Source: Deltaproteobacteria bacterium (lineage in GTDB: Bacteria; Desulfobacterota; Syntrophobacteria; Syntrophobacterales; Syntrophobacteraceae). From it: 36,942 nucleotides of DNA. This document shows positions 5,103 through 8,151 of this stretch, piece after piece. The stretch's first letter is position 1. Each line of letters opens with the position of its first letter. The stretch covers positions 1 to 36,942 of the forward strand of contig JAJYDE010000040.1 in the NCBI GenBank assembly GCA_021777755.1, written 5' to 3'. Under the pieces are notes generated by a model. That model searched no databases. It was given only the letters and a program-made list of their open reading frames with translations, and had not been told where the DNA came from. Position numbers and translations under genes: made by a program.

Positions 5103-6014
5103 TTAGCGGGGCGGATTGTTTCTTTTCTCATTTGCGGTTTGTACTGAAAAATCCAGCAGAGCCGAACTTTCCCGGTAGGCTTGCGCACAAAAATCGCCCA
5201 AATGCAGGGCGCTTCGCTTGAAATCTTCCACAATCCCCTCCATGTTTTCCGATTTGTAGAGCCCTTCGTAGACTTCGAGGCTTTCCTTAAGCTCGGAAAA
5301 AATTCGCCCCGTATTGGGATTCATCTGGGTAATGGCGGCATAGAGTTCCGGGTTTTGGGCAAAAATCCTGCCCACCAGATTCATTTCGATCCGGTAGCTC
5401 GGGCTTGTGTACTCCATGGTTTCGTGAATATCTATTCCCAGTTCCCGGAGGGTGCGGCCCATGAGCATCGTGGTGAGATGAAACAGCACCTGTATGATGC
5501 TCATCATCCGGTCGTGTTCCTCGGGGCTGCATTCCTTTACCCGGATGCCGCTCGAAGTAAACAGTCGGCGAAGAGATTGCCACTCTTGACTGGATATGCG
5601 AACCGGGCAGGCGGCCAGAGTCTGGCCCGAAAAGCTCGAAACCCCGCCCCCGAACATGGGGTGCAAACCCACGACCCCGGCCTGAGATCGCAGCATCTCG
5701 GCCACGGTGGCGACTTTGAGGCTGGTAAGGTCCATAAGGAGCTGACCCGGCCGCGCAAAGGCGACAAGTTCCCGGATGATTTCAACCGACTTGTGAAGGG
5801 GAACGGCAAACAGGACGATATCGCATTCCCTCATGGCGCGCTCGGAGGTATAAACCGTCCCCAAATCCACGACGTTCACCCGGAAACCGCGCGAGCTGAA
5901 AAAATTGGAAAAAAGGCGCCCCATCTCCCCCTGTCCGCCGATTATGCCGACAGGGGACTGTTTGTTCCATTGGAGATCGGAACCCCGCGAGCCCGAAAAA
6001 CAAGAAAGCCCCAT
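5103..6014 (-). CDS. tyrA: Prephenate dehydrogenase
   Basis: This 303-residue protein oxidatively decarboxylates prephenate to 4-hydroxyphenylpyruvate on the tyrosine branch. It resembles the dehydrogenase half of enterobacterial TyrA: a Rossmann motif GIIGGQGEMGR near residue 20, LHPMFGGGVSSFSGQ in mid-protein, and the helical C-terminal part with EHDRMM, SPSYRIEMNLVGRIFAQNPELY and FKRSALHLGDF. There is no chorismate mutase domain. The ATG at 6014 has GAGG about ten bases upstream; a longer frame upstream lacks family similarity. It follows aroF by 86 bp on the same strand, with a strong hairpin in the gap, and is probably under the same attenuator. NAD preference and any arogenate activity cannot be told. 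Confidence 0.9.
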   Translation of the reverse strand: MGLSCFSGSRGSDLQWNKQSPVGIIGGQGEMGRLFSNFFSSRGFRVNVVDLGTVYTSERAMRECDIVLFAVPLHKSVEIIRELVAFARPGQLLMDLTSLKVATVAEMLRSQAGVVGLHPMFGGGVSSFSGQTLAACPVRISSQEWQSLRRLFTSSGIRVKECSPEEHDRMMSIIQVLFHLTTMLMGRTLRELGIDIHETMEYTSPSYRIEMNLVGRIFAQNPELYAAITQMNPNTGRIFSELKESLEVYEGLYKSENMEGIVEDFKRSALHLGDFCAQAYRESSALLDFSVQTANEKRNNPPR

Positions 6015-6100: not shown

Positions 6101-7114
6101 TCAGAGGGAGCGGCCCACCGCCTCGGCCACCCGCCGGCACTCCTCGATCATGGTGAGGAACGCATCGGGGCGAAGCGACTGGGGACCATCGCTCAAAGCC
6201 TCTTCGGGACGCACGTGGACTTCGACCAAAAGGCCGTCGGCCCCCGCGGCGATGGCCGCCTTGGACACCGCCGGAACCAGATCCACCCGGCCCACCGCGT
6301 GGCTCGGGTCGACGATCACCGGAAGATGGGTAAGTTTTTTCAAAAGAGGCACGGCGCTTATGTCCAGTGTGTTGCGGGTCTCGGTCTCAAAGGTGCGGAT
6401 TCCACGCTCGCAAAGGATTACATTCTCGTTTCCCTGCGCCATGATGTATTCGGCCGACATCAGGAATTCCTTTATCGTGGCGCACAGGCCGCGCTTCAGG
6501 ATGACCGGCTTGTCGATATTGCCCACTTCGGTCAGAAGCCGAAAGTTTTGCATGTTTCGCGTACCGATCTGGATAATATCGGCGTATTTGTAAAAGAGCA
6601 CGATGTCTCTGGGGTCCATGAGTTCGGTCACTATCTTCATGCCCGTCTTTTCGCGAACTCCGGCAAGAAACTTCAACCCCTTTTCGCCCCAGCCCTGGAA
6701 AGCATAGGGCGAGGTTCTCGGTTTGAAAGCTCCGCCGCGCAAGAAACGAACCCCCGCGGGCTCGACCGCCTCGGCTATCTCTTCGAGGATCTCCCGGCCC
6801 TCGACCGCGCAGGGCCCGGCAATGACCTGGATCCGCGGACCGCCAATTTCGAGCCCCTCCACGTTCACCACCGTGTTTTCAGGCTTGAATTCCCTGCTCA
6901 CCAGCTTGTAGGGTTTAAGAATCGGGAGCACCTTTTCCACTCCCGGAAAGGACTCCATCGGGATCTCGGCCAAAACTCGCTCATCGCCTATGGCGCCGAT
7001 TATGGTCCGCTGTTCGCCCTTGGAAATATGCGCCCTCAGACTCATGTCCTCAAGACGGCGTACAATCCTCGCCAAGTCCTCTTCCTGGTAATCGGGCCTC
7101 ATCACTATGATCAT
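6101..7114 (-). CDS. aroF: 3-deoxy-7-phosphoheptulonate synthase (DAHP synthase, type I-beta)
   Basis: This enzyme condenses phosphoenolpyruvate and erythrose 4-phosphate, the first step to chorismate. The 337 residues match the Thermotoga-type enzyme: an N-terminal ferredoxin-like regulatory domain (about 1-70, starting MIIVMRPDYQEEDL) that binds Tyr/Phe in homologues, then the TIM barrel with IAGPCAVEG, LRGGAFKPRTSPYAFQG, the LKRG lysine, and DPSHAVGR. With tyrA downstream it forms a tyrosine-directed pair. Two layers of control can be inferred: feedback through the N-terminal domain, and transcription attenuation by the Tyr/Phe-rich leader at 7240-7317 with its terminator at 7184-7220. The ATG at 7114 is preceded by GGGGG about ten bases upstream. 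Confidence 0.94.
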   Translation of the reverse strand: MIIVMRPDYQEEDLARIVRRLEDMSLRAHISKGEQRTIIGAIGDERVLAEIPMESFPGVEKVLPILKPYKLVSREFKPENTVVNVEGLEIGGPRIQVIAGPCAVEGREILEEIAEAVEPAGVRFLRGGAFKPRTSPYAFQGWGEKGLKFLAGVREKTGMKIVTELMDPRDIVLFYKYADIIQIGTRNMQNFRLLTEVGNIDKPVILKRGLCATIKEFLMSAEYIMAQGNENVILCERGIRTFETETRNTLDISAVPLLKKLTHLPVIVDPSHAVGRVDLVPAVSKAAIAAGADGLLVEVHVRPEEALSDGPQSLRPDAFLTMIEECRRVAEAVGRSL

Positions 7115-7183: not shown

Positions 7184-7220
7184 AAAAAAGCCGTGGGCGC
7201 TCCAGGCGCTCACGGCTTTT
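7184..7220 (-). terminator. Intrinsic terminator in the aroF leader (attenuator)
   Basis: On the minus strand AAAAGCCGTGAGCGC and GCGCCCACGGCTTTT form a 15-bp stem with one G-U pair around the loop CTGGA. TTTTTTGTTTT follows, making a strong Rho-independent terminator. It sits 19 nt after the stop of the Tyr/Phe-rich leader peptide and about 70 nt before aroF, so it would stop transcription before the structural genes unless disrupted. A plus-strand terminator reading is also possible, but no plus-strand gene ends here. Confidence 0.85.
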
Positions 7221-7264
7221 GTACGGACAATCTTGATTTTCAGTACCCGAGCATACCTGAAGCG
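7198..7264 (-). promoter_or_regulatory. Candidate antiterminator pairing in the aroF leader
   Basis: Leader RNA CGCTTCAGG (7256-7264), inside the leader peptide frame just after the Tyr-rich codons, can pair over nine positions, one of them G-U, with CCTGGAGCG (7198-7206). That second segment is the loop and upper stem of the terminator. A ribosome stalled on Tyr codons would leave the first segment free to pair, while one that reaches the leader stop would cover it in part. The lower 10 bp of the terminator are not directly competed, so folding should be computed. Confidence 0.5.
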
Positions 7265-7317
7265 GTCCCCCTCATGGGGTAATAATAGAAGCAATAAAAA
7301 TAAAGTCCGCCGTTCAT
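7240..7317 (-). CDS. Tyr/Phe-rich leader peptide of the aroF-tyrA attenuator
   Basis: This is a 25-residue frame, ATG at 7317 and TGA at 7240, with a GGGAG ribosome-binding site about five bases upstream. Residues 6-13 read YFYCFYYY: five Tyr and two Phe in eight codons, and a sixth Tyr is the last residue. It lies between a good sigma-70 promoter (7336-7364) and an intrinsic terminator (7184-7220) ahead of DAHP synthase and prephenate dehydrogenase, the layout of classical amino-acid attenuators such as trp, his and pheA. A small CCCC-ATGA-GGGG hairpin (7268-7279) follows directly after the Tyr codons. The peptide itself probably has no function beyond ribosome sensing. Too short for routine gene finders. 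Confidence 0.8.
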   Translation of the reverse strand: MNGGLYFYCFYYYPMRGTASGMLGY

Positions 7318-7335
7318 ACGCTCTCCCATCGGCCA

Positions 7336-7364
7336 AATAGACTTCATTGCAAACCGTTTGTCAA
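7336..7364 (-). promoter_or_regulatory. Sigma-70 promoter of the aroF-tyrA leader
   Basis: On the minus strand TTGACA (7359-7364, full consensus) is followed after 17 bases by TCTATT (7336-7341, four of six). The start of transcription would be near 7329, about a dozen bases before the leader-peptide ATG, giving an untranslated leader of roughly 215 nt before aroF. The gap to the preceding mazG stop supports an independent transcription unit. Confidence 0.7.
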
Positions 7365-7461: not shown

Positions 7462-8151
7462 TCATGCGCGCGGCCCCTCCGATTCAAATCTTCCAAGAAA
7501 GCCGTGCAGGAGGTCTTCGGCCCGGTAGCCTTTGAGGCGGGCAATATTTACCAGTCGGGCCAACAATCGGCCAAGCTCCTCGTCAAGGGCCTCCTCACTT
7601 TCCAGACGGCTTCCCAACTCATGGCCTTCCCGGGCGAATTGGCGCATCTGCAGGGACAGATCGCCCCAGTCCCTGGAAGTAGAACGGGAAAACATCCGGT
7701 AGGCCCGTATCAGGGCCGGAAGGGAATCGGGCACCGGTTGAACGGCTTTTCCACTTGCCCCCTTCTCCGAGGCCTTGATTTTTTCCCAGTTGTCTTTGAC
7801 CTCATTGGCCGAATTGACCTTCGTTTCGCCAAAAACGTGCGGATGCCTTCGGATCATTTTCTCGCTTATAAGCCGGCAGACATCCTCCAGGCGGAAATCC
7901 CCCCGCCCTTCATAAAGACGCACCAGAAAAAAGGCCATGAAGAGCACGTCGCCGAGTTCTTCGGCGACTTCCTCGACTCTTCCGGCCCTTACCGCCGCCG
8001 CGGCCTCGTGAGATTCCTCGACAAGATAGGTCTGAACGGTTTCGGGGGTTTGCTTGCGGTCCCACGGACAGCCGTTTTCACCAAGCAGCCGTTCGATAAT
8101 ATCCAGTATTTGCCCCAGTGCCTCAAAACGATCAGTTTTTGCCGCTTCCAC
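7462..8151 (-). CDS. mazG: MazG nucleoside triphosphate pyrophosphohydrolase
   Basis: This enzyme hydrolyses (d)NTPs to the monophosphate and pyrophosphate, a housecleaning role. The first MazG domain is clear: LLGENGCPWDRKQTPETV, then the metal-binding EESHE and EELGDVLF motifs, RRHPHVFG and the VKDNWEKIK segment. The second half (SLPALIRAYRMFSR..., DEELGRLLARLVNIARL) is the weaker C-terminal MazG repeat. GTG 8151 is preferred because AAAGGA lies about five bases upstream; ATG 8175 is an alternative, and the longer frame upstream is antisense-like sequence inside cvpA. It overlaps the end of cvpA by about 20 bp, so the two are cotranscribed. Confidence 0.9.
   Translation of the reverse strand: MEAAKTDRFEALGQILDIIERLLGENGCPWDRKQTPETVQTYLVEESHEAAAAVRAGRVEEVAEELGDVLFMAFFLVRLYEGRGDFRLEDVCRLISEKMIRRHPHVFGETKVNSANEVKDNWEKIKASEKGASGKAVQPVPDSLPALIRAYRMFSRSTSRDWGDLSLQMRQFAREGHELGSRLESEEALDEELGRLLARLVNIARLKGYRAEDLLHGFLGRFESEGPRA

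Follow-up and report, generated by a model that had tools for sequence, protein, structure and literature searches.

Our analysis indicates that aroF-tyrA in the window, by which we mean the whole stretch of 36,942 nucleotides analysed, is preceded by a ribosome-mediated transcription attenuator that very probably senses charged tRNA-Tyr, a reading to which we assign a probability of roughly 0.88. At the sequence level, the leader has the main features by which a leader-peptide attenuator would be recognised, namely codons for the end product, a terminator and an antiterminator predicted to be exclusive with it.

The anatomy of the element and its conservation can be read directly from the genomes compared, and from these we infer ribosome stalling, the switch itself and the ligand. 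Transcription would begin a short way before the leader gene. With ample Tyr-tRNA, the ribosome would reach the leader stop and cover the leader end (7264-7248), so that the terminator (7220-7186) could form and aroF-tyrA would be left untranscribed. When Tyr-tRNA is scarce, the ribosome would stall in the Tyr run (codons 6-13) and open the 1:2 protector hairpin, freeing the leader end to pair with the upper part of the terminator stem, and RNA polymerase would then continue into the genes for DAHP synthase and prephenate dehydrogenase. Were the leader not translated at all, the protector hairpin would be expected to favour termination.

Anatomy of the leader region

The elements of the leader region all lie on the minus strand (Table 1), which the sequence-only reading had left unstated when it described a TTGACA-N17-TCTATT promoter; the promoter sequence is present, as are the 25-codon frame, the ribosome-binding site and the YFYCFYYY run at codons 6-13 that it also reported. 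The sequence-only reading thus holds in almost all particulars. This Tyr/Phe run is not a chance product. When the 348-nt spacer was dinucleotide-shuffled 2000 times, no stretch of 8 codons with 7 for Tyr or Phe arose, and an octapeptide of the YFYCFYYY type is unique among the 73,838 octapeptides encoded in the six frames of the window. A generic promoter/terminator scan flagged neither a promoter nor a terminator site here, the former because TCTATT has no A at position 2 and the latter probably because of a mismatch in the stem.

Table 1. Features of the leader region and of the two genes downstream, in window coordinates.
Feature	Position	Strand	Description	Basis
Leader region	7364-7179	minus	between mazG and aroF	
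Promoter	7336..7364	(-)	-35 TTGACA 7364-7359, 17-nt spacer, -10 TCTATT 7341-7336	sequence and genus conservation
Leader ribosome-binding site	7321..7327	(-)	GGGAGAG	sequence; GGAGAG present in most genus members
Leader peptide gene	7240..7317	(-)	ATG at 7317, 25 codons MNGGLYFYCFYYYPMRGTASGMLGY and TGA	
Regulatory codons 6-13	7279..7302	(-)	Y F Y C F Y Y Y	sequence; Tyr enrichment over 29 leaders
Protector (1:2) hairpin	7249..7323	(-)	7323-7316 with 7256-7249, 8 bp	minimum-energy fold
Antiterminator 5' strand	7248..7264	(-)	segments 7264-7256 and 7253-7248; codons for T-A-S-G-M-L	
Antiterminator 3' strand	7198..7212	(-)	segments 7206-7198 and 7212-7207; overlaps upper terminator stem and loop	
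Intrinsic terminator hairpin	7186..7220	(-)	14 pairs and one A-C mismatch; U-rich run to 7179	
aroF	6101..7114	(-)	type I-beta DAHP synthase, ferredoxin-like regulatory domain, 337 aa	NF006421, TIGR01361, PF18152
tyrA	5103..6014	(-)	prephenate dehydrogenase; start likely	PF20463/PF02153; best NCBIfam matches are prephenate dehydrogenases

On the minus strand the terminator reads AAAAGCCGTGAGCGC-CTGGA-GCGCCCACGGCTTTT. It starts 19 nt after the leader stop and carries a U run, as had been described, but its stem is not the perfect 15-bp helix first proposed, being made of 14 Watson-Crick pairs and an A-C mismatch. The 9-bp alternative pairing put forward with it proved exact in its coordinates (7264-7256 with 7206-7198, one G-U included) and is extended, past a 2-nt bulge, by a further 6-bp helix (7253-7248 with 7212-7207). 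In the minimum-energy fold the protector hairpin pairs the leader end with the ribosome-binding site and start codon. The whole leader folds mildly better than its shuffles (z -1.5) and, with the window taken alone, the antiterminator is about 1.5 sd better than those formed with shuffled leader ends.

Domain and family matches bear out the original naming of the two downstream genes as DAHP synthase and prephenate dehydrogenase, and tyrA is linked to aroF in all 30 aroF loci examined. The longest tyrA frame begins at 6140; the likely start is the ATG at 6014, with tyrA probably beginning about 86 nt past aroF.

To follow the predicted switch, the transcript was folded as far as the terminator loop under a ribosome mask; this model is crude and equilibrium-based. 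In the window, the antiterminator had a probability of 0.10 with no ribosome. Placing the A site at the first Tyr codon raised this to about 0.8, and at the next two codons it stood at 0.4; little was formed with stalls at codons 11-13, and the value fell to 0 at the stop, a zero that is mostly built in by the mask, whereas the rise over the ribosome-free state is not. Several relatives share this pattern, some of them going from 0 to above 0.9. Pairing of the terminator arm with anything upstream was also tried as a measure under the mask and was too noisy, and the named antiterminator pairs were used instead.

Conservation of the leader and of its alternative pairing

Orthologous aroF upstream regions were collected from the genus, the family and the order. 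Within the order, all 29 aroF-tyrA loci that could be assessed, from three families and counting that of the window, have a Tyr-rich leader (L047, cut by a contig end, was left out of the count), and each of these leaders is followed by a U-tailed terminator, mostly 18 to 30 nt past the stop. Conservation in relatives had been set beforehand as a check on the sequence-only reading, and Tyr codons, terminator and alternative pairing are all kept. Between families the leader peptides are very divergent, with Tyr retained (MNSGLYYYWFYYYPLGGTASGMLGN, MQALFYCSYYYYYGAYRSVQGMHRM, MHRFFTGFYFYYGWYCGPSGVSRPPC and MLCGGVYYYYYWLTYRTMEVARGR are examples from relatives). Among the 9 genus sequences CTTGACA is invariant and TCTATT is exact in 7, with TCTAAC and TCTATG in L037 and L038; the protector hairpin, in the window's form, is present in 5 of the 9, the closest only, and is not kept in L041-L044. 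The Tyr leader was not found at 4 aroF loci outside the order.

A side observation concerns L055 and L057, from another family of the same class, which have an aroF-tyrA pair without the Tyr leader. There, aroF is preceded by a frame which, judged by eye, resembles the end of trpA, and the pair may be under trp operon control instead.

The composition of the leaders bears on what is sensed. Over the 29 leaders, 154 of 712 residues are Tyr, 51 are Phe and 16 are Trp. The leader-attenuator reading originally suggested stands, with Tyr, and not Tyr and Phe in equal measure, as the conserved signal. An attenuator with similar responses to Tyr and Phe, perhaps extending to Cys, would be in keeping with the two Phe codons and one Cys codon within YFYCFYYY, with the overall share of Phe and with the FYFYY motifs seen in one family (f2). 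We nevertheless regard such a joint aromatic sensor as unlikely, given that Tyr exceeds Phe three to one, that the run is without Phe in some leaders (YYYYY in L046 and L054, YYRYYY in L049, YYYYYY in L060) and that the DAHP synthase of the Phe branch is preceded by a separate leader.

The alternative pairing can be followed in the same way. The terminator arm differs between families (GAGCGCCTGG, GGGTATCCTGAAC, GGGTATCCCAGTG, GGGCTAACCCC) and the leader end changes in step. When arms were swapped over all sequences they paired worse than the cognate arms, with none of 5000 permutations reaching the observed mean, and 71 of 5000 did so when swaps were confined within families. Pairing was not weakened by swaps within the genus only (4972 of 5000 permutations were at least as good), a test without power given a terminator arm that is nearly fixed and the omission of the top of the 3' arm. 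Within the genus, 94% of 135 antiterminator pair cells are kept, compared with 26-52% when the strands are slid, and three sequences carry a double substitution that turns one UA pair into CG. On the leader strand the substitution (GCT to GCC) leaves the encoded alanine unchanged, as selection on the RNA rather than the peptide would predict. In L043 and L044 the 9-bp helix has two or three broken pairs. An antiterminator joining the leader end to the terminator arm is well supported across families, and more weakly inside the genus. The covariation looked for by the sequence-only reading is likewise seen across families and in the one UA-to-CG double change, but not in the genus-only swap test.

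These findings also weigh on two readings of the hairpin that differ more fundamentally from a tRNA-Tyr attenuator. With mazG upstream on the same strand and ending near 7462, the hairpin might be a mere mazG transcript-end or constitutive terminator and the leader frame incidental; we consider this very improbable, as a conserved promoter lies between mazG and the leader, the Tyr-rich frame is absent from shuffles and kept at 29 of 29 orthologous loci, and the terminator arm remains complementary to the leader end across families. We give equally little credence to an arrest peptide sensing free tyrosine, as TnaC does tryptophan, or to control at translation instead of transcription: ASGMLGY, the C-terminal half, is conserved in the genus, but the conserved stretch coincides with the antiterminator strand, and between genera the peptide sequence is lost while the RNA pairing persists; a U-tailed terminator between leader and aroF is a mark of transcriptional control.

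Three DAHP synthases and three leaders

The Tyr leader does not stand by itself. It is one of three amino-acid-specific leaders, and the genome has three DAHP synthases of aroF's type, each behind its own. On contig 48, a DAHP synthase-prephenate dehydratase fusion of 637 aa has upstream of it a leader (FFFGFFF) ending FASFAGFFFGFFFMSAHPGS and a terminator; on contig 26, a DAHP synthase followed by trpE, trpG, trpD and trpC is preceded by the leader MIKPCFWYWWCNCGGARLTG (CFWYWWC) and a terminator. Relatives show the same set: a Phe-rich leader precedes 23 of the 25 fusion loci that could be assessed, and a Trp-rich leader 24 of the 29 such trp-type loci. Phe makes up 28% of the Phe leaders and Trp 15% of the Trp leaders, and for the latter none of 5000 permutations matched the cognate antiterminators.

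Searches of the window's own genome found no TrpR, no TyrR-type HTH and no match to a T-box model, which agrees with the earlier suggestion of a solution independent of TyrR. None of the 38 genomes searched had a TrpR above cut-off, and a TyrR-type HTH was above cut-off in 10 of the 38; in those 10 relatives the domain sits in long open frames of about 500-650 aa. In E. coli, too, three DAHP synthases (aroF-tyrA, aroG and aroH) are divided among Tyr, Phe and Trp, but control there is by the protein repressors TyrR and TrpR. Since each of the three branch-tied DAHP synthases here has a cognate leader, with no TrpR, TyrR-type HTH or T-box found in the genome, the same isozyme split appears to have been reached by another route, with RNA attenuators in place of repressors. 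If so, the textbook division of DAHP synthases can be achieved with RNA switches, and the paralogous operons form a natural series in which to study changes in the amino acid that an attenuator senses. The Tyr leader is of greater interest as one of three such attenuators than as a single element.

To our knowledge, tyrosine is not among the amino acids usually listed as sensed by leader peptides. The mechanism is of a known kind and its Tyr version has no Rfam family: against Rfam 15 the window leader gave no gathering-level match and no believable permissive match (Phe_leader, RF01859, scored 14.8 bits with a cut-off of 55), and the Tyr, Phe and Trp leaders of relatives were without a believable match at gathering or permissive level. 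The pheA and pheST attenuators of enterobacteria (RF01859) resemble the present leader in having a short aromatic-rich leader, a protector, an antiterminator and a terminator before an aromatic operon, but here Tyr codons replace Phe, the target is aroF-tyrA and there is no sequence-structure match. The E. coli trp attenuator (Rfam Trp_leader) follows the same logic, and a Trp-rich leader stands here before DAHP synthase-trpEGDC; the Tyr leader would, however, sense another amino acid, and this lineage's Trp leader also covers a DAHP synthase and is unmatched by Rfam.

A tyr attenuator is not entirely without precedent, as earlier computational listings exist. Putative attenuators are listed before Vibrio aroAIalpha_Y-tyrA, Thermus aroAIbeta-tyrA, Desulfovibrio vulgaris aroA' and others (Merino database; PMC1173090, Table 7), and Shewanella aroF is annotated as 'Attenuator sensing tyr-tRNA', with an older E. 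coli paper cited (PMC2659441, Table 3). These tables share with our case a predicted attenuator before DAHP synthase or tyrA genes, but they are computational and describe no Tyr-run leader peptide, and the Vibrio aroAIalpha_Y named there is another type of DAHP synthase than this aroF. The novelty first supposed is tempered by these hints from other lineages, although it holds in that no described Tyr-run leader peptide was found in the open-access literature, the scope of our search.

Tandem hairpins and a shared terminator core

A core CCGTG(A/G)G...CCCACGG is common to the Tyr terminator (window 7191-7215) and the Trp terminator (C26:118622-118652), and the two attenuators are possibly of common origin. 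We rejected the notion that the shared CCGTGGG core is simply a common terminator of this genome, since its occurrences with a T run are confined to the Tyr leader, the Trp leader and C29:63646. The last of these has no proper U tail and no leader, and was judged to be chance.

A broader and more tentative proposal, which we hold to be plausible if somewhat doubtful, is that in this order all entry into the synthesis of aromatic amino acids is governed by three parallel leader attenuators, one for each DAHP synthase, several of them with domino-coupled tandem hairpins. The three-leader set is well supported by the sequences compared; for the domino coupling the evidence is complementarity, whereby the arms of neighbouring hairpins could pair and one antitermination event would disarm a second terminator. 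The Phe leader on contig 48 (L002) and its relatives (L069-L087, L122-L125) have two tandem hairpins. Their leader end (strand 1) pairs with strand 2, the hairpins are 2:3 and 4:5, and strands 3 and 4 are complementary; the exclusive states {1:2, 3:4} and {2:3, 4:5} would make this a five-strand attenuator. The first hairpin of the Phe leader itself carries the U run in L077, L080 and L086. At the Trp locus on contig 26 (L003) and at L088, L094, L097-L099, L101, L106, L107 and L113-L117, the first terminator is followed by a second whose 5' arm complements the 3' arm of its predecessor, giving a duplex of about -18 to -23 kcal/mol; antitermination at the upstream terminator could therefore disable the downstream one. 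A second, similar hairpin is also present at the Tyr leaders of family f2 (L062-L065, L108, L109).
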